A program made the translations under genes and the position numbers. The notes beneath the pieces are model-generated. The model had not been told where the DNA came from. It did not search any database and was given only the letters and a program-made list of their open reading frames with translations. A stretch of 64,000 nt of DNA from Isoetes taiwanensis (Eukaryota > Streptophyta > Lycopodiopsida > Isoetales > Isoetaceae), in contig JAJEKV010000018.1 in assembly GCA_021234155.1 (NCBI GenBank), positions 17,055,415 to 17,119,414 of the forward strand, read 5' to 3'. This document shows, in pieces, positions 38,915-60,840 of the stretch (positions are counted from its first letter, which is position 1; each line of letters opens with the position of its first letter).

Positions 38915-40138
38915 ATGTTTTTTTTTAATTGAAAGATGCTTTCATTCATAATGGATTTATGTATACAACTTAATTCTATGTGATATCAAAACCTCCACAA
39001 CTTGACGACTGTGCAGAGTTAATCACATAGCAAGATTAAACGTGCCATACGTCACAACTGACTAAAGAAAGAATCCCATAGTTGACGAGCCATTCTTTGA
39101 TCTTTCGCAGCTTGAACCTGTTTACTCAGTTTAGATTTAAGAGATATCAAGATCCTGGAGGAATGCGTGTAATTCTGTGAGAAGACAAAAGCCTTGCGTC
39201 TCTTCCAAATAATCCAAAGCAGCCATCCCTTACACAAATGCACAGCATCCCTTTTCAATGCAGACCATCCTCTAGGATAAATTCCCAGCACTACATTTAC
39301 AACTGGGCTAGATAATTCAAAAACTTCTTTCACTCGGTCCCAAGCTGCTTGGATGTCTCTGCATTCTATAAAGCAATGCTCAATAGATTCCTCCGTACAA
39401 TCACACATAGGACAGATAGGGCTAACTTGTGAGTTGAATCTGCTGACCACAATGTTAGTTCTTAATGCCCTGTGTATTATCTGCCATGTGAGAACTTGCA
39501 CTTTGGGGGGAAGACGATTCTTCCATACCTGTTTCCACATATGCTTCAAATCCCCTTCCTCACTTTGCAAGGACCACTTCGGCGATAACTGTAATACCTC
39601 GTTGAAATGAAGAAGTTTGTAGCAAGAAGAAACTGAAGGGTGCTCGTGCAAAGCTTCATGAGATGTCACAAAATCCCCCACCAGTGGTATTGCATAATAC
39701 ACGACCGACCGCCAAATTGCTTCAATCTTGTGGACGCACCTCAAATTTTTGTTTGAAGTCTTCCCATGATAAAAGCACCCCCTGTGAGCACCAATCGCCA
39801 ACAAAATTGATTCCACGTGATGACCACCTTCTCTGAGTCCTCATATCCACTAGAGAAAATAGGGGCTTTGGATCCCCATCCGTTTCTATGGCTAACCACC
39901 ACACCGGCATTGCGATGGAGTGGCAGTTCACTACATTCAGATGCCATAAACCCCTCACTGATTCCCATGCTTTAAGTAATCCTTTCAACAAAGGTGAAGC
40001 CCCTGAGAAAGGTTTTAATTTGTAAAAGAGAGCCCATGGCAACTCCACTTTCATGGTGACTTTGTCGCATGAAATGCAATGTAAAAGTGATTGTTTCAGC
40101 AGCTGAGTACCAGGGGAATTCACCTGCCCATTCAACAC
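38915..40138 (-). mobile_element. LINE-B, 3' part (zinc-binding RT tail, poly-A end)
   Basis: The frame 39816-39052 is the reverse-transcriptase zinc-binding domain of plant L1-type LINEs: MWKQVWKNRLPPKVQVLTWQ, then CPMCDCTEESIEHCFIEC, then GWLLWIIWKRRKAFVF. An upstream frame at 40138-39722 carries the preceding connection region. A 3' untranslated stretch ends in a run of A (minus strand) near 38918. The 5' part of the same LINE resumes at 55159, beyond the inserted LTR element; the join is marked by the duplicated AACAC. Confidence 0.88.
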
Positions 40139-41683
40139 TGTGACGTTCCAGGATAATGTACGGTATGAATACGTATATTATACTGACACGTCACTAGTAC
40201 ATGTCGACTTAGACGACATGTACGCATCGACCATAAAGGGGTAGTACCCTAGGGTACAACCTTGTGACCCATTATATTGCACATCTTAAGGCCACATGTG
40301 AATATAACACCCTTTTGCCATGTGGCAATAGCCCATTGACCAAAAAGGGCCCAGCCCTAAATTCGTGGGGATAAAGGGGCATAAACCCTAAAAGGGGAAC
40401 CCTTTCAGTTCCCAGCTCCCATAAATTGGATTGGGCGGCATTGGGCGTCTTCGGCGTGAAATGATGAGGAGAGGAAGGAATTCCCTTAGTGGCGGCTCGA
40501 TCCAAGCAAAGCAATCGAGATTCAGCAGCATGGACGCCTTCAGAGGAGTGGGAGCCAGCCAAGAAGCGGGTTAGTGGTTGATCCGATAGTTAGATCCGAG
40601 TTTTCAGCCCTCATTCCATAGGGTTAGTATTCATTCTTAGCTATAGGCGACCCCTACAGCCTAAGAATGATAGATACTAACAAAGGAACCTAACCATGTA
40701 TGATTAGGTAGATTAGAATAGATATGTTCTATTGTTTCAGTTCTATTGTGATGATGTTTTGACATTCCATGCGCCACTCTTGTGTATTGGGAAGGGGAGT
40801 AGAGACCCGTGAGCCCAAGTAGTTGTATGATCATAGTTTTGGCCCATTAATTCCCACCATGCGGCTCGTGCATAAGAGCCCTTTGGTTGTGGGGCGGAGC
40901 TAGACCCTACCGACAAGGGAGGTCTTGTCCAATCACGCTTGATCCTCCGGTGTGCAAGCGACGCCGGGAACGTTGTGAACCAGGCCTAACACCTGGGCAC
41001 CGCGGAGGGCAGGGTATGGGCTTCGACACCTCTTGGGCGAGCGCGTCGTCTTCTAGTGGTTCAAGTCGTAATGAAGCAAAGTGGCTCTGCGGCTCGCCTC
41101 GCGGATTGGCATGAACCTTCTTGAGGGGAGTGATCCCCACCGCCTCATCGGGCTGGGGAGATGCAACCCAAGAGCGCGTTAGCCCCTCCGTGGCTACTCA
41201 CCAGCACTCACGGTCATGCTCCAATACTCTTGACCTATCCCAAAGTATGCATGCGAGGGGGGCGGATGGAGTGGATTACCCAACGGCCATGTTCCTATGC
41301 CGGTACCAATCCATTTTGCCATGAATTTCATGCGCATTGCTATCTGGAGATCCCAAGCCGTCAGTCGATCCCCATCAGTCCGAGCTTGGGTAGGATCTTC
41401 TCTATGTTATGTTGATGTACTGATGTGTGATGCAGCTACTGTGATATGGTGGACCACCCTTCGAGGTGGGTATGTTATTATTGATTGATGTCATGTGCTC
41501 ATGTTTGTTTACGCGTTGTTAGGTCGATCGAGGGAGGCGGGATGAATGACACGCCCATTCTTCCCCGTCGGGTTCTTGGCCACCATCGAGAGCCCGATGT
41601 TAGGTGGACGGCCTCACATCGCCAGGCGATCTTTGGGAGGTTGTATACGATCGGGGCATCGTATATGAGTTGGGGCCGTCACA
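40139..41683 (+). repeat. 5' LTR of copy 1
   Basis: It is 1545 bp, bounded by a 7-bp inverted repeat TGTGACG...CGTCACA. Most of it realigns to 51720-51887 plus 53776-55158. The 3' LTR shows many small deletions relative to this one, so the insertion is not recent. A CTCATTCCATAGGG/GTTAGTATTC-type leader segment and GC-rich 3' half are shared with copy 2 more weakly. Confidence 0.9.
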
Positions 41684-41684
41684 A

Positions 41685-41698
41685 TGGTATCAGAGCTC
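41685..41698 (+). promoter_or_regulatory. Primer-binding site, initiator-Met tRNA
   Basis: TGGTATCAGAGCTC begins one base after the LTR end (CACA, A). TGGTATCAGAGC is complementary to the 3' end of plant initiator tRNA-Met, the usual primer of plant LTR elements. Confidence 0.9.
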
Positions 41699-42623: not shown

Positions 42624-43124
42624 ATGGCTAGAACAAAACAGACCGCCTGTAAGCCCAAGAAGGATGATAAGCCCAGCGCACAAGTACTCGCCGCCGAACA
42701 GAAGCTCAAAGATGCTGACGAGAAACTGAAGGCTGACATGGAGAGGCGGCCTAGGTACTATAGAAACTTCGAAAAGAGGCGCAGGAAAGAAGAAAAAGCC
42801 AGGAAGAAAGAAGAAAAGGCAAGAAGAAGAGAAGAAAGGGCCAAGAGAAAGGAGGAGAAGGCGAGAAGGAAAGCGGATGAAGAAATTGCAGAGGCGGAGG
42901 ATGATCAATGGCGGGAGCTGAGGACTAAGAATAGGGAGGAACCCGACCCGAAAGGAAAAAGGGTAATGATGAAGAACCCCCGCCTAAGAAGAGGAAGACT
43001 CGACCGAACCAGTCATAAACGAACCAACCGGCTTAACAACCGCCAGCCTCGCCGAAGACATCGGAGATGTAGCGACTTTTGGACTCGCTTTTCTGAACCG
43101 GAGAATCCTCACGAAGTAGCCTAA
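42624..43124 (+). CDS. Histone H3-like ORF of copy 1, tail and charged region
   Basis: The first ATG of the frame has a strong context (ACAATGG). After Met removal the N-terminus reads ARTKQTACKPKKDDKPS. Canonical H3 starts ARTKQTARKSTGGKAP, so the seven residues that carry R2, T3, K4 and T6 are identical, R8 is Cys and K9 is kept. About 20-40 residues later comes a long Lys/Glu/Arg-rich helix (KARKKEEKARRREERAKRKE), unlike any host H3. The frame closes at 43124; the reading continues in other frames (43205-43330, then 43360-43788) into an H3 fold. So the present copy has two frame breaks, or an intron I could not define. It lies between the PBS and gag, outside the standard Ty3/gypsy gene set. 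Confidence 0.85.
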   Translation: MARTKQTACKPKKDDKPSAQVLAAEQKLKDADEKLKADMERRPRYYRNFEKRRRKEEKARKKEEKARRREERAKRKEEKARRKADEEIAEAEDDQWRELRTKNREEPDPKGKRVMMKNPRLRRGRLDRTSHKRTNRLNNRQPRRRHRRCSDFWTRFSEPENPHEVA

Positions 43125-43359
43125 CCCTCGCCCCGACACGACGCACCCCTGTGAAGAAGACCCACCACCGTGACCCGTAGAGACACGTGTTGACCTACCC
43201 GTAGTTGCCTCCACCATTCTTGGAATGGCAAGAAGCAAAGAGACTTGACGCAGAAAAAGCAGCTGGAAAGAAGGCAACCAAAACAGCCCGGGACTCGTAC
43301 ACTTTAGGGCCCGAGAGAAGGTACAAAAAGAGCTGGCAGAATATACCTTATACAAGAAG

Positions 43360-43788
43360 ATGCACGACGAGTACGCAGCCTACTACGAAGCAAACAGGGT
43401 CAGAGTTGTCGAAGAAGGGCGGCCAACTCGAGAAGCATTCCAGCTCAAACCTCCACCAGAACTGCCAGAACCCCCCAAGAAGCTTATGAAGAGATCTCAA
43501 GACTCCCCTTTTGCAAGAGCCCTGAGAGAAATCCGCCACTTCCAAAGGAGCTACGGATTTCTGATCCCGAGAGCAGCATTCCAGAGGTTCGTGCGAGAAA
43601 TCTTGTGGGAATTCGACCCCAACAAACGAGTAACTAACGACATGTTACTCGCTTTACAAGAAGCAGCAGAGATGGAGGTAGTGCAACACTTCGAGGACTC
43701 ACTGGCGTGCACGCTCCATGCAAAAAGGGTCACACTTCAACCAAAGGACATGAAGTTAGCCAAGTACATCAAGAGGACAGATAAATAG
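43360..43788 (+). CDS. Histone H3-like ORF of copy 1, histone-fold domain
   Basis: An unbroken 142-codon frame ending in a complete H3-type histone fold. Residues ALREIRHFQRS correspond to H3 alpha-N. FQRFVREI is alpha-1, LLALQEAAEMEVVQHFED is alpha-2, and HAKRVT with PKDMKLAKYIKR is loop 2 and alpha-3. My hand alignment to H3 from its YQKS segment to the C-terminus needs no gap and gives 36 identities in 82 positions. The Cys equivalent to H3 C110 is kept. Loop 1 has the canonical length, without the insertion usual in CenH3. Surface residues differ widely (LWEFDPNKRVTND in alpha-1/loop 1). The stop is at the point where H3 ends. It could enter nucleosomes as an H3 variant or package element nucleic acid; that is inference. 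Confidence 0.93.
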   Translation: MHDEYAAYYEANRVRVVEEGRPTREAFQLKPPPELPEPPKKLMKRSQDSPFARALREIRHFQRSYGFLIPRAAFQRFVREILWEFDPNKRVTNDMLLALQEAAEMEVVQHFEDSLACTLHAKRVTLQPKDMKLAKYIKRTDK

Positions 43789-46199: not shown

Positions 46200-47062
46200 G
46201 TGCTAATGTAATAGGTGCGTTTTAGAACAACTAGGAATGTCGACCTTGAATTCCAAGCCCAAGGCGATCACACGCCAATGAGACAATTCCAGCCTGGATC
46301 CGCTCAAGAGTATTACGACCGACGCCAGAGGAAGAAATCTCGCAGATGAGGTCGATCCGCAAGAAATCAAAGCTATGTTGGCGTGGCGGGGAAGAAACAG
46401 CAAGACCGTAATGTACAACCCCGAGAGGCCCCGCTCAACACAAAGGAAAAGAGAAAAAAAGAGGAGCCGGGGCGCAGATCTTCTAGCTCCAGCCTCGGCT
46501 TCGGACTCAAGCTCGAAGTCCGAGGAGGAAACAAGAAGAACAAAATTAAGGAAGGGAAGAAAGAGTAGCGGTGGAAGCAGCCGCACCAATCCGACTACCA
46601 AAAGAAGGTCGACTCGCCTTAAGTAATGTTTGAAGGCATTTAAAACCGAACAATTTTCCGACGAAAAAAGATCGTGGATGGAAGTCAAGCATGGCTAGAC
46701 GAGATGAGTGAGTACTGAAATGCTTACGCATGAAAGACAAAGACAAGGGCGTGGTAGCCACCGCTAACTTGAAAGGGCGGCCCAGATTTGGTGGAGGGGC
46801 TATGCTAAAGCCCATGGAATGAGCAGACAAGTGCAGGTTCAATGGTTCGCAAGGGGCCTTCAAAAGCACTATGTCCCAAGAGAACACAAGTGCCATCGAT
46901 GCAAGCATTCCACAAAGTTACAACAGGGGGAACAAATGCACGTAAATATAGGAAGAGTTCATGAGGTTGAGGCTATATGTGCCAAAACTCAGCCAGAGAA
47001 GAGCAAAGGGGAAGGCTATGTGGAGGGCCTGAATGAGGACCTACGGAAGATAGTCGAGCTCT
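46200..47062 (+). pseudogene. gag region of copy 1, frameshifted
   Basis: Gag forms the retroelement particle and binds its RNA. The N-terminal part aligns with copy 2 (EEISQMR region) and has a basic Ser/Arg-rich segment (46375-46626). The capsid part reads WLDEMSEY, KDKDKGVVATANLKG, YAKAHGMS, HYVPREHKC, and LQQGEQMHVNIGRVHEVEAIC with EGLNEDLRKIVEL (46940-47062), the retrotransposon gag pattern W...F...Y.P......L.Q....V..Y...F......GL...L...V. Several frame changes occur. I could not find a clear CCHC knuckle downstream (47.1-47.5 kb). Confidence 0.8.
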
Positions 47063-47549
47063 GAACCCGCCAAGATCGAGGCGGAAGCGAAGTTGGTAAG
47101 CCTACAAGGGCGGGACCCCGTAAAAGTGAACCCAAGGAGTGGTATGACAAAGGAAAAGCATATGGAGGCCGAGCCGAGAGCAAAACAACCACACCGCCAA
47201 GACACCATACACCGTAAAATCAATGGAAACAAGCAGAAAAGCAGGTGCCTTCAAAGATAAAGGACAAAGCATGAGGCTCAAATTATTCAAAGACAACAAG
47301 TTCCTCAACTCCATTCGAAAAGAAAAGCGGCAGGAATGTATAGAAAAACAATGAAGCTTCCGGCTTCCACCGGGCATAGAACACACAACCGCCTGCTCGT
47401 GATGAATGCAAAAGACTTTATGAAATGGGAGGTTGGAAGACCCCGATTGTAAGAAGAGGAGGGAAGGACGCCGACTATATCCATGGTGAGGTGCGTCACA
47501 TCTTTGCCGCCATAGATACGAAAAGCCGCAAAGAGCCGCATACCAAGTA

Positions 47550-47880
47550 ATATCCACGATTGGTAAAATAGCCACCAAATCTTTTATAGTCCCTATAGAC
47601 GTGGGCGTTTCCCACAATTTCGCATCACCAAGGATGGCAGAAATGCTAAAGTTGAAAAACAAAGAAAGTCTAAACCCAGACCAAGAGTGTTAGCCAGTGA
47701 GCCATCAGCACACTACGGGCGAGAGGGTGAATTTCAATATAGACTTACCGGTATCAATATTGAAATGGGGGCAGTAGATCATGAGTATAGGAAAATATGA
47801 CTTCATCATAGGTATGGAATACCTCAACCCCGCAAAAGCACAAATAGATTGTGGAGAGCCGGAAGGTGAAGCTCACGGCC
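47550..47880 (+). pseudogene. Retropepsin-like protease region of copy 1
   Basis: VPIDVGVSHNFASPRMAEML (about 47601-47650) corresponds to the DSGA.HNF active-site region of Ty3/gypsy proteases. Here Asp is kept but the DSGA triad reads DVGV. YDFIIGMEYLNPAKAQIDC (47798-47855) is the flap/C-terminal ILGMDWL..H...IDC segment. The two are in different frames. Confidence 0.8.
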
Positions 47881-48099
47881 TAACGGAAAAAATCATAGAA
47901 ATCTCAGGTAAGCAAGTGACATCTATAATGCAATGCATGTCGAGTAAGAAATTACTTAGATGCATCACAAAGGAGCAAGTTGCATACATCTTCAAATTAG
48001 AACTTGTCAAGAAGAGGCACCGTAAGATAAAGAAGATGAATCGCGAAGCAAACTACCAAGCAAGTAGCCAAGCTTAATAGAGGAATTCCATGACTTGTT

Positions 48100-49430
48100 C
48101 CCCCGATGAAATCAAGGAGCTCCCGCCATAGGGGAGTGGAGTGCTAAATTGCACTCGAACCGTGTACTAAGCCCACGAGTAAGGCACCATACGTAATGAC
48201 GGCCCACCTAAACCATCGTGAGTTGAAGAAGCAATTGCGGGGAGCTATTGGACCTAGGGTTCATAAGGCCTAGTGTCTCTTCTTCGAGCCCCATCTTATT
48301 CGGCAAAAAGAAAGATGGAAGTTTGAGGATGTGTATTGACTATCGCCAATTAAACAAACACACAATCAAGAACAAGTATGCCTTACCCAGAGCGTACGCA
48401 CGATGGATCGATTACAAGGAGCCAGAGTCTTCTCCAAAATAGACTTAAGGTCTGGATATCATCAAATCAGAATCAAGGAGGAAGATATTCACAAAACGGT
48501 GTTCCGAACAAGGTATGGCCATTATGAATTCACAGTGATGCCATTTGGCCTATCAAATGCCCCAGCAACGTTCATGAGACTCATGAACGATATCTTTCGG
48601 GAATTCCTTGACACATTTGTTATCGTGTTCTTCGATGATATTTTGGTGTATAGCAAGTCCCTAGAGGAGCATATCCACCAGTTGAGAAGGGTACTTGAGA
48701 AGCTGAGAAGACACCAGCTTTTGCGCGGTTATCATTAAATGTCATTTCGCCACCGAAAGAGTGGAATACTTGGGGCACGCCATATCAGCAGACGCAAGAT
48801 CTCCACCGATCCCAAGCAAAGATCCAAGCAAAGGATTGAATGGCCAGCACCAAAGAATATACACGAGGTGAGAAGCTTTTTGGGCTTAGCAGGATATTAT
48901 AGAAAGTTCGTCAAGAACTTTGCTAAGATAGCAAAGACCTTTAACCGGACCTCACCAAGGCGTAAAAGATAAAAGACTGGTGGCACATTGGCAAAAAGAA
49001 GGCTCAAGCAGATTCGAGAAGTTGAAGGAAGCCTTTAACAACCGCCCGCCTTAACATTGCCGATCCAGAGAAGGACAAGCTAGTTGCAACCGATGCGAAA
49101 GCAAGATTGCGACGGGAGCCTTTAATGCAAGAAGAAAGAGTCGAGAGCATACAATTCACGAAAAGATGAATGACGCAGACTCGCTACCGACAACACCATC
49201 GAGCTATTGGCGCTGGTAAGAGCTTTAAAGATCTGGAGACACTATCTATTGGGAAGGAAGTTCCATTAGATACCGACCACCAAAGTCCGGCAAGACATCT
49301 TCACGCAACCATTGTTGAATTTAAGGCAAAGAAGATGGATGGAGTTCCCGGAAGAGCACGACTTCAGATTGTGTACAAGCCGGGAAACTCAATGTGGTCG
49401 CAGATGCTCGGCCAAGGCACCCCTTAACAA
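48100..49430 (+). pseudogene. Reverse transcriptase and RNase H of copy 1, frameshifted
   Basis: RT blocks: [15 protein letters not shown] with [18 protein letters not shown] (48253-48355), [15 protein letters not shown] (48430-48475), [20 protein letters not shown] and the catalytic FFDDILVYS (about 48633-48660). The thumb reads RSFLGLAGYYRKFVKNFAKIA (48866-48930). RNase H shows VATDAKA (49085), IELLALVRALKIWRHYLLGR (49197-49258) and a TDHQS segment. Catalytic Asp residues of RT are present. Breaks near 48400, 48740, 48970 and 49250 separate the frames. Block wording places it in the chromodomain-bearing Ty3/gypsy group. Confidence 0.92.
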
Positions 49431-49639
49431 CAAGGGTGCATTGCAATGCCATATCAACACTCACCAAGTGAGTTTGACAAGAAAATAGAAGAAACATTGC
49501 CAACGGACAAGGACTTGAAGTGAAGTATGGGCAAGCCTTTCTAAAGAGGCAAGAACGGACAAAGAGAGAGAAGCCTTCAAACATTTTAAGAAGGAGGGAA
49601 ATCTCTTGTACCATAAAAATAAGTTGTATGTACCGTAAT

Positions 49640-50380
49640 CATCCTAGGAGTCGGAAGGTTGATTCTCCATGACACCCACAACAGCCCGACAGCCGGCCAG
49701 TTATAGGTTTTACGAAAACCTACTTCAAGATAAGAAGTAGTTACTATTGGCCGTGCATGAAGAAGCGATAGCAAGGTACATACGCGAAAGTGTCGATTTA
49801 TGTCGGCAAACCAAGGCGAACAACTACAAGATAAGAAGTAATTCCGCATGGAGCATTAGAGCCATTGCGCAGAAACCAAACTCCAAGTGGGAGATAATAA
49901 GCATGGACTTCATTGGGAGGCTCCTAGAACCATAAGGGGCAAAGACGCCTTAATGGTCGTAGTCGACAAATTGTCGAAAATGGCGCACTTTGTGCCTTGT
50001 AGGAGCACCGACACGGCTTTAGACACGGCTGTGTTATTCACAAGGGAGATTTTTAGACTCCATGGGATGCCAAGAGAAATAATCTCTGATAGGGATTCGA
50101 AGTTCATGAGTGCATTCTGGCAGGATCTCTTCAAAACCATCGGAACGAAATTATCAATGAGCTCGGCTTATCACCCTCAAACAGATGGCCAGACGGAGCG
50201 CACCAATCGGATACTTGAAGATATGTTGCGGAATTATGTCTGGAACAAGCAATCAAAGTGGGATGACTTTATCTACTTGGTTGAGTTTGCATACAATAGC
50301 ACCAAGCAAGAGTCATCCCAAATGTCGCCGTTTATGATCAACTACGGCTATCAGTGCTTGACACCAGACACTTGACACAA
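49640..50380 (+). pseudogene. Integrase core of copy 1
   Basis: The DDE integrase reads ISMDFIGRL (49897-49923), VVVDKLSKMAHFVPC (49955-50000), ISDRDSKFMSAFWQDLF (50085-50135) and SSAYHPQTDGQTERTNRILE (50160-50218). Both core Asp residues and the Glu of DGQTERTN are kept. A zinc-binding N-terminal region lies upstream in broken frames (49640-49860). The core frame 49887-50375 is open for 162 codons. Confidence 0.93.
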
Positions 50381-50519
50381 CCCCAGGTCCAAGGTAGAAG
50401 TATCCCGGCCAGATGTTAGCCGAGATGCAACAATTGGTTGAGGAGGTACGAGGATACCTCTTAGCAAGAAGAAGCAGCAAAAAAAGAGCATAGCTGATCA
50501 AGACCGAACAAGAAGGGAG

Positions 50520-51192
50520 TTCCAAGTAGGGGACAATGTTTGGCTGAAGATAAAAGTCAAACAAGCGAAGCTCAAGATCGGCAATTGCAAGAAGCTTGCT
50601 CCAAGGTGGACTGGGTCCATTCAAAATTGTCGAAAAGAGTGGGCAACCAAGCCTACAAATTGACTTACCAAAGACACCTCAAGATCCATAGAGTCTTTCA
50701 CGTAAGTCTCCTAAAGAAACACACTCCTAATCCAGAGGAAGTATTGGAGACACCGAGTTTCATCGGAATTAATCGGACGATCAGCTTGAGATTGTCCCTC
50801 GAAGTTTCTTCTCGACCGATCCTATAAGAAGACGAGAAGATCTCAATTTCTCCAAAGATCTTGTGAAATGGACGACTTACCGTGGAGGACGCCACGTGGG
50901 TACTACAATCGATCTTGAGAAGCAAAGATACCCACAATTCATGGAGCAATGCAAGGGTCAGCTCGTCACCAAGTGGTCGACTCTCGAACCGATGGGCGAA
51001 AGTGAGGTATCTACAGAGTCTACTTCCGATGCCACGGAAGTAGTCAGCTTGAGAGAAAAGAGGTCATTCAGGAATGCATTTGTTAGGAAAAGCACCTCTA
51101 GCCCCATATATGTTTTGATAGGAGGAATCTGTCCTTCACGCCCCATATACGGGAAGGACCCCATCCTCCACGCTGGGCAACTAAAGGTGTAG
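50520..51192 (+). pseudogene. Integrase C-terminus with chromodomain-like tail, copy 1
   Basis: QAYKLTYQRHLKIHRVFHVS followed by LLKKHTP (50650-50725) is the usual integrase C-terminal A..L.LP....IH.VFHVSLL segment. It is followed, across two frames, by VKWT..LPWEDATWV (about 50858-50915) and DLEKQRYPQFMEQC (50911-50952). This is the chromodomain pattern of chromoviruses (L.KW...P.EDATWE....L...P.F). Chromovirus chromodomains bind methylated H3 tails or chromatin and direct integration. A charged C-terminal extension runs to about 51192. Confidence 0.78.
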
Positions 51193-51719: not shown

Positions 51720-54700
51720 TGTGGCGTTCGGGATAATATACGGTATGAATACGTATATTATAATCGACGTCACTAGTACATGTCGACTTAGGCGACATAT
51801 GTAACAAGATCGACTATAAAGGGGTAGTACCCTAGGGTACAACCTTGTGACCCATTATATTGCACATGTTAAGGCCACATGTGAATAGAATAGAATAGAA
51901 TAGAATAGAATAGAATATACATTAACGTCCCTCAGGCCGTGAGGCCCCCGGACTTGTGTAGCATCCCCGCGAGCTCCCAAAAATTAGGTTTGCCAACAAA
52001 CGCATTTACATGATTATATAGCCTTCTAGCGGGCTTCACTTGTTCTTTTTATTACCCGCATCGTGCTTTTTAGTTGGCTTCTTTTTGGCCATACACAATG
52101 CATCGTTATCAATGACTTTGAGTTGTCCTTTGTGGCCTTTTCGATTCGCCGCGTGCTTCTCGATTATCGGACCCTTCTCTTTGTGCACCCCGGTGTCTAA
52201 TTATCATCTCTTTTATAGCTTTCGCTACATCTCGTAGCGTCTCTTCTTTGTCCATCAAGTCTTTGGGAGTGGGAGGTCCCACCCGACCTTGTTAAATTTG
52301 GACCTTATGTCCGTGTAGACCAGGACATTCTTTGACCATATGCCTCTCGTCCTCTATTTTGCTCAGATCACATAGTCGGCATATTCTCTCTCTCGTCATG
52401 TTCTATATTTCTCCACCTATCCTTCTCGATTCGTAGATCGTGGCTTCCCATTTCGAATCTAGCTAAGCGTTCCTCATTTGTTTCTACATAGCGGTGTTGC
52501 TTTTGTATGTAATGTGTCCTATCTCGAGAGTGGATTGAAGACTCCCAATAGCCATTCCACTTTTTGGACCAGATCTTTGTGCCGACCAACTTCTCATTGC
52601 CCCGTCCGGCCCATTCTTCTTCCCATCCATTTGCTTGTATGATATGATTTAATTGCAACCCCATGTTTGCCGCCCATCTCGCCACATCGTTGAACCATCC
52701 CTTGCCTTTTACTATGTGTTGCTTTCTTTGATTCCTCCATTGCTAGTGATGATAACTTATCCTCTTTCCCATAATTTATCCTTTATTAGGTACCTTATTG
52801 TTCTTTCCCATGCTCTCACCTCCATTGGTTTTTCTTACATTTCATATATGATTGTTGCTAATGATGTACCCGCTTTCACGGAATTCCCGCCCAGGTACCC
52901 TTTGTCTCAAGATCCCTTCTGTTTCTCCCATTTTTTTTCTCTGTTAGGCCCGGCCCCACGTTTCACATCCTGCAGATAAATGCGTCGATGCCACTAATGT
53001 GTTAAACAGGTATGTTTTGATTTCAGCTTGGTGATCCCGGCTTGTTAGTGCAGAATTCATCATGGTATAATAGTTGCCCATCATCGCCACGAAATCATTG
53101 TCGCCGCCTTTGACCACTTCCCCGCCATGTGTGTCATAGCCCAAGCAATTGCACTCGTGGTTTCCTCTAGCTCTTGTCCCTTGTATTTGAAGGGTTTGTG
53201 CTTAGATCTTTGTACGGAAGGTCACTATTTTGTTTTGTCCAGATTGATGTTAAACTCGCCTCCAAACGAGAACTCTTCTAGAATTTCTAACATTCGTGCA
53301 TTCCTTTGACTTTGGTCGCCATCATACCTAGGTCGATCTGCAGATAGCATTATTGGGACCTTCGTTCTCCCTATTATTGGTGCTTCCTTTATCTCCTTCT
53401 TTTCTCCTCAAGAATTCCCTGTAGGGCATCTATGTATATCCCAAAAGCGTGGGTGATAATGGGCACCCTTGTTTTTACTCGTGGTCGCAATCTATTGCTT
53501 CCCCTTCCCCTTCCATTTTAGCATATACCTTCCGGTATAGTCTTGCGATTGCTCCCACCAACCCATCTGGTGCTCTTAATCCTATCAGTCTCAGAATGAG
53601 CTTATCTCTGGGTACTATGTCGAAGGCTTTCCTAAAGTCCACAAAGCAGATATGATTTTCTTGTTGTTCTCCTTGCCCTGTTTCTATCATTATTCTTAAG
53701 GTCACTAGGTGTGGTGAAGTCGAGTATTCTGGTCGGAAGCCGGCCTGGCCTTGTGCTCTGAGTTTCCCTGTGGCTCATATAACACCCTTTTGCCATGTGG
53801 CAATAGCCCATTGACCAAAAAGGGCCCAGCCCTAAATTCGTGGGGATAAAGGGGCATAAACCTAAAAGGGAACTCTTTTCAGTTCCCCTCCCATAAGTCG
53901 GATTGGAGCAAAGCATTGGACGCCTTCTCGGCGTGAGCGATGTGAGGAACCGGAATTCCTTAGTGGCACTCGATCCAAGCCGGCAATCTTAGATTCAAAG
54001 AAAGATGGACGCCTTCGTGAGGAGTGGGGAGCCAGCCAAGATGCGGGTTAGTGGTTGATCCGATAGTTAGATCCCAGTTTTCAGCCCTCATTCCATAGGG
54101 TTAGCATTCATTCTTAGCTATAGGCGACCCCTCGACCTAAGAATGATAGATACTAACAAAGGAACCTAACCATGTATGATTAGGTAGATTAGAATAGATA
54201 TGTTCTATTGTTTCAGTTACATTTGTGATGATGTTTTGACATTCTATGCGCCACTCTTGTGTATTGGGAAGGGGGGTAGAGACCCAGAGCCCAAGTAGTT
54301 GTATGATCATAGTTTTAGCCCATTAATTCCCACCACGCGGCTGTGTATAAGAGCCCGCCGGGTTGTGGGTGGCGGAGCTAGACCTACCGACAAGGGAGGT
54401 CTTGTCCAATCTGATTGATCCCTCCGTGCGTAGTAACGGTAGGGGAACGCTAGGAGTCGGGGCGCTCGCGTGAGGGCAGGTGGTATGGGCTCGACACCTC
54501 TTGGGCGTCGCGCCTTCTTCTAGGGGTTCAAGTCGGTACGAGCAATGGCTCTCGCTCAGCCTGCGGATTGGCATGGACCTTCGGAGGGAGTGATCCCCAC
54601 CGCCTCATCGGGGCCGGGAGATGCAACCCAAGAGCGATAGCCCCTCGGCTACTCACCCCGGCGGGCTACGGTCAGGCTCCAATACTCTTCAGCCTATCAC

Positions 54701-55158
54701 GCAAAGTATGCATGTGAGGGGCGGATGGAGTGGATTACCCAACGGCCATGTTCCTATACCCTAGCAAATCCATTTGCCATGAATTGCATGCGCATTGCTA
54801 TTCGAGACCCTAAGCCGTCGGTCCAATCCCCATCGGTCAGAAGCTTGGGTAGGATCTTCCCTATGTTATGTTGATGTACCGATGTGTGATCAAACAATTG
54901 TGATATGGTGGACCACCCTTCGAGGTGGGTATGTTATTATTGATTGATGTCATGTGCTCATGTTTGTTTACGCCTGCTTGCTGGGTCGATCCCGAGGGAG
55001 ACGGGATGAATGACACGCCCATTCTTCCGGGTTAGGGTTCTTGGCCATCATCGAGAGCCCGATGTTAGGTGGACGGCCTCACATCATCGGGCGATCTTTG
55101 GTTTGAGGGATGATCTCCAGTTGTATACGATCGGGCATCGATAATTTTGGGGCCCACA
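51720..55158 (+). repeat. 3' LTR of copy 1, split by LINE-C
   Basis: LTR sequence occupies 51720-51887 and about 53776-55158. It starts TGTGGCG (5' LTR TGTGACG) and ends GGGGCCCACA. The break falls inside gtgaatataacaccc of the intact 5' LTR. Confidence 0.9.
51888..53775 (-). mobile_element. LINE-C, 5'-truncated non-LTR element with (GAATA)n tail
   Basis: On the minus strand: HICFVDFRKAFDIVPRDKL (53645-53590), an RT core motif; then further RT/thumb sequence in broken frames; then WESSIHSRDRTHYIQK and CRLCDLSKIEDERHMVKEC (about 52385-52330), a terminal Cys/His knuckle. The 3' end is a microsatellite of seven to eight TATTC units (plus strand GAATA, 51883-51914) joined directly to LTR sequence. 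The endonuclease and RT start are missing, as expected for 5' truncation. A YADD box was not found intact. Confidence 0.85.
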
Positions 55159-57372
55159 AACACACCGCCAAAATGAATTTGCTCGCCAAAACTTTAGTGT
55201 GCAACACAATATCTAGCATCCCTAATCCACCCTGGTTTCTATGAATGCAGCACTTGTCCCAAGCCACCTTAACATCCGGCCCTCCTCATTTCCACCCCAT
55301 ACAAAATTCCTTATTGATTTAGTCAATTGTCGAAAGTGATGCTTTTTGGAGCCAATAAAGCGCGGAAGTTGATATACGTACGTACTACAAAGTACTGATT
55401 TAGCTACCACAATCCTGCCAGCCATAGAGAGCTTACCTATTTTCCACCAATTTAAATATTTTTCCAACCCAAGTAGGATCTCATCCCACGTCTCTATTGC
55501 TGACCTGTTAATACCAATCGGAATACCCAACAATCTAGATGAGGCACCGCTTGGTGTTACTCTCCAAGGATATTGGAGAATGCACTGAGGTATGGTTTCA
55601 TCCAAAGGCAGCACATTTGTTCCAATTCAAAGAACAACCGGAAGCCATGGAAAACATGTTAAGAAGCCTAGTGGCGCAAGATAGATTCTCCTCTGTTGCT
55701 TCCAAGAAAAGAAAGGTGTCGTTCGCATATTGGCTACATACCTGTTGAGTTCCATCATGCATAGCAAGACCATTAATGATTCCATCACCTGTGGCTGAAA
55801 GAAGCAATTGGGAAAGACCCCCGGCTACAACATTAAAGAGAAATGGTGGCAATGGACAGCCTTGCCTGATGCCTCTGCAATTGGAAAAATGGAAGAAGAT
55901 TCACTAGAAAAAACCACTGATGCGTGACTAGTATCAAGAAGCTTCATTATCACTGATGTGAAGTCTGAACCACAGCCTAGAGCTAAAAGCATCATCTAAA
56001 GAAAGGACCAGCTTACACTGTCGTATGCTTTCTTAATTTCCAACTTCAAGTATATGACTCTACATTTGCATTTTCTTGCCCAAAGGCAAACCTTCAAGGG
56101 TCAAGGCAACATTGCTAAGAATGCTTCTTTTGGGCAAGAAACCAGACTGTGTATAAGTGATATGTTCCATAAGAATTGGTTTTAGCCTCTCTGCATATGC
56201 CTTAGCCACAACTTTGTAAAAGGAGGACAATAATGTAATCGGTCTCCAATCATTAATTGATCTAGGCTCTTTCACTTTTGGTATCAATGTAATGAAGCCA
56301 GTGTTGAGTCTCTTGTCCAAGTATTCCTTTTCGAAAAAATCAGAGTACGCGCTATAAACAAACGGTTCTATCCATTCCCAGTTGGTCTGAAAAAACTCAA
56401 CGGGAATGCCATCCATACCTGGACACTTGTCTTTGACCAACAAGAAGGCTGCTTCCTTAATCTCTTCCATGGATAGAGGTGCTCCCAGCACATCCCTTTG
56501 TGGTTGCGTCACGCCGGGGTTTTACTTTTGGTCTGAAAAAACTCAACGGGAATGCCATCCATACCTGGGCACTTGTCTTTGGCCAACAAGATTTTGCTTC
56601 CTTAATCTCTTCCATGGATAGAGGTGCTCCCAAAGACATCCCTTTGTGGTTCGTCACTTTAGGTTTTACTTTAGCAAGGATCATGTTTTTAAAACAATCA
56701 CGAAACTCCACATCCTTTCCTCGCTCAAAGAAACACCTAAAAGTAATTATATAAATATTCTTTGATCGGTTGAGGGTTCGACGACCACGGCCCATCTTCC
56801 ATGCGAATATGAGTAAGAGTAGCAGCATACATTCTTTGCCTTGCAACCTTGAAGAAAAATTTAGAACATCTGTCCCCTTCTCTTATCCAGGTAAGGCCTG
56901 CTTTTGCTTTAGCCTGAGTGACTTTGATTGTTTCCAAGTTTTTTATCTCTTTCAGAACTTCCTTCTCGCGGTTCCCTGTAATAATTCCACTGCTTAAAAG
57001 ATTGGAGAGCTCCTGATACAAGGAATCCAATCTCGCCTTTTCCTCTCTTACCTTGGTTCTGCCCCACTCTTTAGCAAATTTCTTACGTCCATTCCCATTT
57101 TATTTGAGCTCGTCTCTGGCCATATTCTCTTGCATTGCAACTTGAAATGAATATCCTTCAAGTATCGAGTATTCAATTTAAAAACTGTTCTTAAAGGTTT
57201 AAAGTTGTCCAGAATGCGACCGCTCACGAGTTGCGGGTTGTGATCAGAGATGGAATTATCCAACAGATTTTGACGATATAAAGATGGGCACCAAGATGCA
57301 GCGATCTGGTTAATATAACATCTATCGTGGCGAGCATATGCCCTTCCTTCCGCTACCCGTCCATTGTGCCAT
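55159..57372 (-). mobile_element. LINE-B, 5' part (endonuclease end and reverse transcriptase)
   Basis: This continues LINE-B on the far side of the 15-kb LTR insertion. The endonuclease end reads RHDRCYINQI and SISDHNPQLVSG (57330-57230). RT blocks: DKCPGMDGIPVEFF (56430-56390), LNTGFITLIPKVKEPRSIND (56300-56250), SGFLPKRSI, and QYANDTFLFLEA (about 55735-55700), where the usual YADD is YAND. A tandem duplication of about 140 bp repeats the DGIPVEFF block (56390-56520 and 56530-56660). IRNFVWGGNEEGR and WDKCCIHRNQGGLGMLD (55310-55215) follow. The 5' end is cut at 57373 by a second LTR element of the same family. Confidence 0.88.
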
Positions 57373-58872
57373 TGTGACGTTCCAGTACGATATACGGCCT
57401 CAAGATGTATACCGTATTGCGCCCAAATCACAGCGTACCGCCGCAAATCCGATCAACGTAATGCCGACGTATACAAGCAAGGGGCGCCCTAGGGGCAACT
57501 TGCAAATGGTGCGCACACTTAGCAATGCGCGCACCTTTAGACCTTTAACCCATTAAAGGTAGACCAAGGATCATGGAAACCCTAAACTCTAACTAATAGC
57601 CTACATAAGGCATCAAACCCTAACATTCCCCTTTTTCACCCACAGACCTTCCGAGCTCCGATTCGCGCGCCTGAGGAGTCGATTCCAACTCCCACGATCT
57701 GCCGTCGCTTCCCGGCGTGTCGGATCGCCCTCCGACAGCATCTCGGAGACATGGACGCCCCGGATCGAGAGGAGTGAACCGAGGGATCGGGTATTTGGTC
57801 GATCAAATAGCATAAACCTCACTCCGACCTTGAACCAAAGTGGGTTTAGCCTATTAGATCACCCCTAACGCCTAAGTAGATCCGAGATTGATCTAACTAA
57901 AGAACCTAACTCTATGAGATAGATTAGTTCTTTATTATTTATTATGTTGATATGATGGGCCGGATGGATTACGTGAACTCATTGTATTGGGAAGGGGGTA
58001 GAGACTTAAAGCTTAGTAGATGATGCTCCTAGTTGGTCCCTCTTAGTGCATTACAAGTTTTAGGGCAGTGTACAAGAACCTCACGGTTGAGGGTGAAGGG
58101 ACCAGGCGGCTCGAACGAGGTTAGTGTTGACCCTTGATCGATCCTACGGTGTGTAAGGCCACAGGGGATCGAGTGACTAGGTCTAATGGCTTGCCGCTGC
58201 GTGCGGGCAAGGCATGGGCATGGGCTCATTGCAGTGGGGTGGAGTTCACCTTCCGGTGGGTTAAGTCAAATAAGGCGGTGGCCCTCTAGTCACCAGATGG
58301 GTCAACATGTAGACCTCGGGTGGGAGTGATCCCTACACGCCCCATCGGGCTGGGGAGATGTAACCCGGGAGTAGCCCCTTTGGCTATGCACCCGTGGGCC
58401 TCTGATCCGAGGTCCTAACACTTGTCAACCTACTGCGCAAAGTGTGCACGGGAGGGGGCGGATGGAGTGGACAACCCAATGCCATGTTCTTATGCCGGCC
58501 CCCTCCATTGTCATGATTACATGCGCAAGGAACTCACGGAGACCCAAGCTTGTCGGTCCATCCTTGTGTACGAGCGTGGGTAGGAACTTCCTTTGTATTG
58601 TCTTTGATCTTTGTCTATGCATATGTTGATGCGCCACCCGCCGAGGTGGATATATGATGATTATATTCTTGGCGTGTATGTTTACGCTTCCGGCGCCTAG
58701 GTAGGCCCGAGGAAGGCGGGGTAAAATGACCCCTTCACTCTTCCCAGGGGACCCTAGGCAGTCCGCGGTGATATGTGGAGGGCCAGACGTATCGAGTGTG
58801 GAGCTGGTGGGGATGAACTCTGTTGTTGTATACGGTGCGGGCATCATGATTATCACAGTAGGGGACGTCACA
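57373..58872 (+). repeat. 5' LTR of copy 2
   Basis: It is 1500 bp, starting TGTGACG and ending GACGTCACA, the same 7-bp terminal inverted repeat as copy 1. Short shared blocks with copy 1 include ttccagtacgatatacgg-like start, attgtattgggaaggggg, gggcggatggagtgga and caccc.ccgaggtgg. Confidence 0.88.
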
Positions 58873-59533: not shown

Positions 59534-60840
59534 ATGGCACCGGACCAAACAGACTGCGGAGGAAAGCCCGCCCAAAGGCCGACGCCCGCCGATGCAAGCA
59601 CGATTCGACGATTTCGGGGAGTAGCCTCCCTAACCCACTCCAACTTCCTCGAGTAAAGGAGAACCTTCGAACGAGCACAATGGAGAAGAGGAAGTACACT
59701 TCGGGCGCAGGGACGGAAGTAATTGAGGAGGAGGAGGAGGAAGCGAAGGAAAGGAGAACCAAAGCCCGAGAGGAAAGGAGGATACCCCTCGAGAGCCGAC
59801 CATGAAGAACAAGTCAAGCTTGGATCCAGAAAAGGAAGCCGGAGGAGCAACAGGAGCAAATGGAGCCGAAACTCCAGCCAAGAAGAAAAGACCCTCGCCG
59901 GTTTTATCGTGAAATACGACGCCGAGAAAAGAGAAGAGAAGAGAAGAAGAGGAAGAGGAAGAAGAAGAGAAGAAATCGGGCCGAGGAGACCAAAAAGAAG
60001 AAAAGATAAATGGGTGGGGAGCCCAAGGAAGTTCAAGGACGTCCCCCATGGTGAAAAAGCCCAACCCGAAGATCACCCACATCGAACGGCCACCCGATCA
60101 TCCCCCAACCCCCTGAGAGTTCTCGGTTTTAAGAGCCTCACCCCAACATGAAGGGGGCAAGTTCTTCCAAACCCGTGGATTGAACAAGTAGTAGTTGAAC
60201 AGTAGTAACCGATCGTGAAGTGGCCGAGGAGGAGCAGCAGAACACAGTGAAGAACCCCCCTCCCTACCCGAAATGGGACAGGAAAAAGCAACCCCGGCCT
60301 GCCCGAGAGTCCCACGTCCACGTAATCCCGGTAAAGATCTATGAACGAAGATGCGGGAGCACAATGCCTACATGAAGGAGTGGGAGGCATACGACAAGTA
60401 CTACACAGGAGGAAAGCGAGGTCGGGGCCATTGAAGGAGGACACCCAACCAAGCAGAGACCCTAAGACCGCCACCACCCAAGCCCAAGGCCCGAAAAAGC
60501 ACGCCGGGAAGAAGCTTACCAAGAAAAGCGGCTCGGCGAGAGAGCACTACGGGGAAATCCGACACTTCCAAGCGCAGCTTCTGGCCTCGATTCCCCGCCC
60601 CCTTTGCTCGGCTAGTTAGAGAAGTGGCCTTGGGATTTTAGGACCGGACTTCAGTGGTCCTGAGGCGAGATCTTTTGCCGCCGCGACTCGGTGAAGCGGT
60701 GGCGAGAAGATAGTCTGACATTTTGAAGACTCCGGCACCTTGTCCATGCGTTTAGTGACTCGATGAGGCAAGATATGCAACTTGCTACTCACATCAAGGG
60801 AGAGCAGCCCCTAAACTTTTTGTAAATAATCGAAAAATTT
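59534..60840 (+). pseudogene. Histone H3-like ORF of copy 2, decayed
   Basis: The ATG at 59534 opens ATGGCACC; one base shifted, the next codons read RTKQTA, and one more shift gives RKARPKAD, so an H3-type tail is recoverable as fragments from three frames. A Glu/Arg-rich region follows (EEEEEEAKERR at 59728-59760, and 59723-60151). The fold is broken but visible: GEIRHFQ (60560), PFARLVREVA (60605-60634), HFEDSG (60721-60738) and DMQLATHIKGEQ (60775-60810). These match H3 alpha-N, alpha-1, the end of alpha-2 and alpha-3 (PKDIQLARRIRGE). Location between PBS/stem-loops and ORF B is the same as in copy 1, which shows that the histone is a stable part of the family. Confidence 0.85.

Follow-up and report, generated by a model that had tools for sequence, protein, structure and literature searches.

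Related Ty3/gypsy retrotransposon families of Isoetes taiwanensis carry a selected gene for a protein with a C-terminal histone H3 fold

Mobile elements carrying an H3-like gene have been described in fungi. A hAT element of Pyrenophora tritici-repentis captured such a gene, two forms of which occur in 10 and 16 copies in the reference genome, mostly identical and with ESTs (PMC3538342). hAT elements of Pseudocercospora fijiensis and its relatives also carry H3-like genes, with 784 copies in P. fijiensis, one or two per element and all but the original inactivated by RIP (PMC6710886). Among plants, orchid Ty3/gypsy elements captured an AlkB RNA demethylase; the available text of that study, which screened 121 angiosperm genomes, contains two mentions of histones, both on other matters, and presents retroelement chromodomains as readers of histone marks (PMC9289625). 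Medusavirus and Melbournevirus encode histones of their own, and some DNA viruses are described as having whole sets or doublets. A polydnavirus H4 is reportedly another parasite-encoded histone. No histone gene in an LTR retrotransposon was found in the literature searched, which comprised titles and the opening parts of abstracts, with preprints and subscription-only papers mostly outside. The word histone is absent from the main text of the I. taiwanensis genome paper (PMC8566536) and of the I. sinensis paper (PMC10541799). A preliminary description of the locus studied here had stated that no chromovirus encoding a histone was known; this stands for LTR elements in the literature found, but the fungal hAT reports had already put captured H3 genes in print (PMC3538342, PMC6710886).

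We analysed a stretch of 64,000 nucleotides of I. taiwanensis, hereafter the window (G000:C996:17055415-17119414), and searched the assembly that contains it (1,658,258,908 bases in 1,110 sequences). The window holds an LTR element with an H3-like coding stretch between the primer binding site (PBS) and gag (Table 1). Like the fungal hAT elements, the Isoetes elements are mobile and carry and multiply an H3-like gene. The former are class II elements with separate H3-like copies, whereas the latter are plant LTR retrotransposons encoding composite proteins of 390-460 aa, and they differ further in long-lasting purifying selection and in having the gene as a conserved element ORF. Membership in the hAT-H3L group was rejected, as LTRs and reverse transcriptase (RT) were found instead of TIRs and a hAT transposase (Pfam scans). 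The orchid AlkB elements likewise belong to plant Ty3/gypsy and have an added ORF that derives from a regulator of host type, though of different function. The histones of DNA viruses are also parasite-encoded, possibly for packing or reshaping chromatin, the parasites there being DNA viruses. With plant chromoviruses the Isoetes elements share the Gag-PR-RT-RH-IN order, a chromodomain, a Met-type PBS and a short target site duplication (TSD), and differ from them in having extra ORFs between the PBS and gag, the first of which is H3-like.

Table 1. Features of the window element, of the second copy in the window and of related elements.
Feature	Position	Strand	Remarks
5' LTR (TGTGACG...GTCACA)	40139..41683	+	TSD AACAC at 40134-40138 on the left
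Primer binding site TGGTATCAGAGC	41685..41696	+	initiator-Met tRNA type
83-nt repeat copies	41929, 42154, 42365, 43916, 44129		
H3-like ORF, N-terminal part: MARTKQTACK tail and K/E-rich stretch	42624..43124	+	single open frame; relatives L051-L059 open throughout
H3-like ORF, middle part (WQEAKRLDAEKAAGKK...SYTLGPERRYKK)	43205..43350	+	another frame; in frame in L051
H3-like ORF, C-terminal part with H3 fold (~43507-43773), stop included	43360..43788	+	third frame
gag capsid region	46730..47055	+	decayed; tblastn with A-type gag-pol
Protease, RT, RNase H and integrase region	47490..50824	+	frame-broken; Pfam, tblastn with A-type gag-pol
RT; integrase core; SH3_Tf2-1	48403-48735; 49887-50372; within 50540-50824	+	Pfam, in pieces
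Chromodomain-like remnants (LVKW..., EDATWV...)	50773..51040	+	differing frames, by eye
3' LTR	51720..55158	+	split at ~51891-53776 by ~1.9 kb; TSD AACAC at 55159-55163 after
Second copy, diverged 5' LTR	57373..58872	+	PBS-like TGGTATC-GAGC follows
Second copy, H3-tail relic (RTKQTAEES)	59535..59570	+	
Second copy, decayed H3 fold	60484..60798	+	frameshift-aware alignment
Second ORF between H3 ORF and gag	L039:3506-4834, L040:4879-6273	-	and relatives
L045 element (L045/L046)			LTR identity 95.3%; TSD GTGACC
L039 element (L039/L047)			LTR identity 96.5%; TSD GTGGC
L035 element (L035/L048)			LTR identity 91.6%; TSD AC[T/C]GC, one mismatch
L036 element (L036/L049)			LTR identity 93.7%; TSD AAAGT

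Paired LTRs with a TSD, a PBS and the PR-RT-RH-IN order mark both the window element and the A/B/C elements described below as Ty3/gypsy. The PBS TGGTATCAGAGC is of the initiator-Met tRNA type. The TSD on both outer sides and the PBS place the H3-like ORF inside the LTRs, as the preliminary description had proposed. The length of 15 kb given there is reached (15.0 kb) only when ~1.9 kb of DNA observed within the 3' LTR is counted in. Gag begins ~2.9 kb past the H3 stop, at ~46.73 kb, PR-RT follows at ~47.5 kb, and an A-type gag-pol aligned at 46.7-48.7 kb. As for the assignment to chromoviruses, the pieces in the window are frame-broken and chromodomain-like by eye, but a related element, L050 of family C, has an intact chromodomain (PF00385, E=4.3e-8) after the integrase SH3_Tf2-1 domain (E=5e-21), at the C terminus of the integrase, as is characteristic of chromoviruses.

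The H3-like stretch of the window opens with the ATG at 42624, which reads MARTKQTAC where host H3 reads MARTKQTAR. Its last part (43360-43785, 142 aa) matched the Pfam Histone profile with E=5e-23 over positions 23-121 of 122, and H3 chains in the PDB with E-values from 4.3e-21. A beginning like an H3 tail and an end in an H3 fold, as first described, were thus confirmed, and the concern that a profile search might give no histone match was removed. What did not hold is that 42624-43788 forms one ORF: the coding stretch is spread over at least three frames, so this copy is a pseudogene, in a family that has open-frame copies. Chance resemblance or a wrong frame was ruled out by the Pfam and PDB searches and by dinucleotide shuffles. 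An artefact of assembly or reading, or a chance likeness, has a negligible probability in view of the Pfam and PDB E-values, the many copies on many long contigs and the TSDs. A lone nested H3 pseudogene was ruled out because the ~390-aa ORF of the relatives has the same tail, middle and fold. The window fold found 119 proteins in the databases; the best named matches were CENH3/CENP-A, and none of the named proteins carried a retroelement name.

An 83-nt repeat (CTCCAAGAGTGCGC...GCGCACTCTTAGAG) was observed in five partial or full copies on either side of the window H3 ORF. One copy folds as an RNA hairpin of -39.8 kcal/mol, and the repeat is possibly an RNA signal of the element. We also observed that ~600-930 nt with 3-12 upstream ATGs separate the PBS from the H3 start codon (L031, L035, L036, L039, L043, L045 and the window). 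Because of these ATGs, translation of the H3 ORF may require re-initiation, splicing or internal entry.

A second copy with a similar arrangement, also claimed in the preliminary description, was recovered in the window. Its 5' LTR is 67% identical to the first over an aligned 0.6 kb; after it come a relic of the tail (RTKQTA) and an H3 fold in decay. In frameshift-aware alignment this fold scored 139, whereas 120 dinucleotide shuffles gave 34.9 +/- 5.4 and at most 49. An out-of-frame reading of this copy at 60435-60641 (ARKSTPGRSLPRKAARRES) resembles the middle of the H3 tail; this likeness is probably fortuitous or left over from an older tail.

The search of the assembly for intact copies revealed many open-frame relatives. 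The 142-aa window fold gave 9,177 first-look candidates. The best 150 were scored and were all at least 65% identical; among them the fold was stop-free in 121, and 45 combined a stop-free fold with an open frame of at least 370 aa. Nine copies picked for long frames (L051-L059) could each be read from the start ATG through a single open ORF, 393-401 aa long. Proteins of these W families, to which the window belongs, measure 393-417 aa, with the H3 fold at the C-terminal end. Subfamily W1 mostly starts with MARTKQTARKPKKDD..., with one residue change in the first ten in L055 and in L056; W2 starts with MARTKQTARKVMPPG...; W3 is represented by L062 (417 aa, start MARTKQTARKCRPG...), which came from the RT-picked sample described below. 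We compared 13 W tails (L051-L059, L062, L064, L068 and the window). MARTKQTARK was exact in ten, the copies L055, L056 and that of the window having one change each, and K4 and K9 were kept in all 13. Measured against the H3 tail, residues 1-9 were exact in 10/13, and residues 10 to ~40 were replaced by other sequence. Genome-wide, MARTKQTARK in any synonymous spelling occurred 516 + 535 = 1,051 times, host H3 genes included, and the reversed pattern 0 times. Among 100 listed places, at least seven lay just upstream of a W fold and at least five were host H3 genes; the first 30 listed had 24 different DNA spellings.

A search with the Pfam Histone profile gave 8,705 first-look candidates and led to further families, A, B and C. 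The first 15 of the best 150 scored rows were ordinary host H3 genes. The remaining 135, read in part, included 5 with stops and 36 stop-free ones with a frame of at least 400 aa. Fifteen stretches of 9.9 kb (L031-L045) were taken from these rows for their long frames and, as this selection implies, all had an open H3 ORF. The proteins (411-459 aa) start with M[PS]RFKLT... in A, ME..K... in B and MANTK... in C (one locus), and have K at residue 5, counting Met, in 15/15. They do not begin with MARTKQTARK, the tail being absent or remodelled. A loss of K9 from A/B/C was dropped as a claim, because ARKS occurs ahead of the fold in the C protein and PRKS in several B proteins, with an ambiguous alignment. 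The folds are near-canonical (Pfam Histone E 2.7e-42 to 2.6e-41 in the three proteins tested), and the part upstream of them comprises a ~200-aa domain of no known type common to A, B and C, followed by a linker that varies and then by basic sequence. For residues 1-235 of the A protein the protein databases gave no relative at E<=10. From 8,000 scored candidates the whole protein gave 4,516 matches; those listed, 120 in number, cover 21-43% of its length, an extent that the H3 part would account for by itself. AlphaFold modelled an A-type protein with low confidence (mean pLDDT 58.5); in Foldseek the model had eight matches at E<=0.001, all nucleosomal H3.

Four elements of the A/B/C group bounded at both ends (Table 1) measure ~11.3-13.2 kb by coordinates. 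In L039 the H3 ORF is followed by a second ORF and then by gag-PR-RT in one frame, and L040 has PR-RT-RH-IN in one frame. The second ORF measures 443-465 aa in 5/6 aligned stretches and is 44% identical between A and B. The one tested, from L039, had no Pfam match. An AlphaFold model of the second ORF was useless (mean pLDDT 38).

The link to the element was also tested from the RT side. We took nine RT matches down the list of the best 150 scored, blind to H3, and read the 2.4 kb at 4.0-6.4 kb upstream of each; these nine places are the only sample chosen without regard to H3. An H3 fold was present in five, namely L062, L063, L064, L068 and, decayed, L065. L066 and L067 had open frames resembling the pol of another element, and nothing H3-like was found in the 2.4-kb stretches of L060 and L061. 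Since four of the nine places had no H3 there, the gene may be missing from part of the clade. In 11 of the 20 highest RT rows, that of the window included, an H3 fold is listed at most 9 kb upstream on the same strand. The central claim of the preliminary description, a Ty3/gypsy element that has an H3-like gene of its own located between PBS and gag, was supported. The three roles suggested there for the gene, a special nucleosome on element DNA, packaging of RNA or cDNA and a decoy for host silencing, are conjectural.

Capture and amplification of H3 by transposons is in print for fungi (PMC3538342, PMC6710886), and the H3-like ORF could in principle be a passenger, a host gene picked up by chance, amplified and of no use to the element. 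We estimated dN/dS by the Nei-Gojobori method in 15 A/B/C and 12 W pairs, from loci with the best histone scores (L001-L030) or long frames (L031-L045, three of them around L018, L022 and L026, and L051-L059). In pairs with finite dS, fold dN/dS was 0-0.16 for A/B/C and 0.03-0.18 for W, the choice of copies for open frames or high histone score lowering dN somewhat. The N-terminal domain of A/B/C gave 0.05-0.27 (finite dS) and the linker up to 0.9. Between A and B, A and C, and B and C, dS was saturated and fold dN only 0.09-0.13. Likewise, W1 (L051) and W2 (L057) showed saturated dS with a dN of 0.25 in the fold and 0.61 in the middle. In the tail of this pair dN was 0, with 9/9 residues alike and synonymous sites saturated. 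The nine tail residues had no amino-acid difference in 7/12 W pairs, the other five involving L055 or L056. Selection of open copies does not account for saturated dS beside low dN or unchanged residues. Fold dN/dS of 0-0.18 with saturated dS between families therefore indicates that the H3-like ORF is kept by selection and is no passenger. Further points against a passenger, which we consider very improbable, are the six subfamilies (A, B, C, W1, W2 and W3), in each of which at least one ORF is open, the same place in the elements examined and the added domains. Open copies under purifying selection in other family members likewise remove the objection that the ORF is a chance insertion.

The fold is of H3 type by Pfam, PDB and alignment. 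Read by eye, the 21 aligned rows of A, B, C, W1 and W2 all agree with host H3 at E97, D106, C110, H113, K115-T118, K122, D123 and L126, residues that pair with H4 or form H3-H3' and loop-2 contacts. W3 differs from host H3 at K122. The W1 rows have VT for F84-Q85 and, in 6/7, Y at R129, so the nucleosome stability of the W1 protein may differ. In a maximum likelihood tree of the fold (40 rows), A/B/C formed one clade (100/98) beside host H3, nearest to L015, which reads SHA where the other two host rows read SSA or STA. W formed a separate clade (100/99) with a long branch. The data would be explained best by two captures, or by a single one with later replacement; a tree holding all element rows together was not rejected (AU p=0.107), so that W and A/B/C may share a single origin. 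Profile comparison revealed no homology between W and A/B/C outside the fold (E=0.28, against 1e-40 for A-B and 8e-28 for W1-W2) and did not bear out a DM..RP.RY stretch as a link between them. The best database matches had suggested W to be a captured CENH3, a candidate that loop length and tree do not support. W and CENH3/CENP-A have EIRHFQ and LIP in common, whereas plant CENH3 rows have a longer loop 1, with no insertion there in W and A/B/C rows, and W keeps the canonical tail start. W and CENH3 as one clade fitted worse and were not rejected at 0.05 (AU p=0.065), in a tree without host CENH3, as the host's own CENH3 was not found.

The RT tells a different story from the H3 module. The RT protein of the window differs by ~20-25% from those of A and B (46% from L038), and the RT pieces of A and B, compared among copies of this genome, are 92-100% identical, L038 apart. 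RT dS between A and B copies (L035, L036, L039-L041, L043 and L044) was 0.36-1.05, whereas that of the H3 ORF was saturated, which suggests that pol and H3 module have been exchanged between element families.

Altogether, several related Ty3/gypsy families carry a selected gene, the first long ORF past the PBS, for a protein with an H3 fold at its end. The best explanation, to which we assign a probability of roughly 0.55 on the sequence evidence, is that it encodes an H3 variant that is put into nucleosomes and shifts local chromatin from normal silencing. The site as first long ORF between PBS and gag-pol, in elements with LTRs and TSDs, argues for this model, as do the H3 fold itself, the purifying selection, the conserved W tail, the host-like contact residues and the chromodomain of the C element. 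The variant would pair with host H4 through the conserved fold, use the host H3-H4 chaperone and import route (a KKRR or KKKK stretch is present in 9/9 of L051-L059) and become part of nucleosomes, the likeliest sites being newly made element DNA and target chromatin. In W, the H3 segment from residue 10 to ~40, with K27 and K36, is swapped for ~290-315 residues of element sequence, and the variant would keep ARTKQTARK, K4 and K9 included, as its free end. Local chromatin would thereby be moved away from normal silencing. Chromodomains bind H3-tail-type peptides, and the W tail could serve as an H3K9-type docking peptide for the integrase chromodomain of the element. The role proposed for the tail cannot extend to A/B/C, which have no MARTKQTARK end. 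The W1 changes at F84-Q85 and R129, the four RT-picked places lacking H3, the choice of copies for dN/dS and the low-confidence A-type model also count against the explanation. We regard as doubtful a private address that the element would both write and read, in which its H3 would replace host H3 on element chromatin, with the K27/K36 middle dropped and a methylated ARTKQTARK cap read by the element's own integrase chromodomain.

The position as first long ORF and the W middle, which is very basic and K/E-rich, would also suit a protein that condenses element RNA or cDNA in the virus-like particle through basic tail and fold, outside host nucleosomes, much as giant viruses pack DNA with their own histones. 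The gag of an A element, however, brings a capsid domain and weakly matches zinc knuckles, plain condensation needs neither a conserved H4/H3-H3' interface nor an ARTKQTARK end, and Pfam found no further histone match in the element proteins tested; we therefore judge packaging unlikely. Ranked behind it, and unlikely too, is a decoy that would soak up H3 writers, readers and chaperones (H3K9 methyltransferases, ASF1/CAF-1) and weaken silencing with no need for incorporation. The exact K4/K9 peptide under selection in W, the kept fold and the numerous copies are in line with a decoy, but a tail decoy needs no fold and a fold decoy no tail, both are kept, and A/B/C have no free tail. The chromodomain integrase of the C element and a W tail peptide of a kind that chromodomains bind point to a third possibility, in which the protein would bridge the integrase chromodomain and target chromatin, by replacing H3 there or binding H3 readers, and so guide target choice; we hold this tether to be less probable still. 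Incorporation of an element-encoded H3 variant into nucleosomes remains our preferred reading.

A long-conserved H3 gene, often with the exact H3 tail, suggests that these parasites of the genome produce a host chromatin protein in a form of their own. If the element supplies a histone too, the conflict between parasite and host over chromatin would be two-sided, the parasite bringing its own substrate for the marks. In this genome, element genes swamp any count of H3 homologs. Selection on nine residues of the tail, which lie ~290 residues from the fold, would provide a clean test of the use of H3K4 and H3K9 outside normal nucleosomes.
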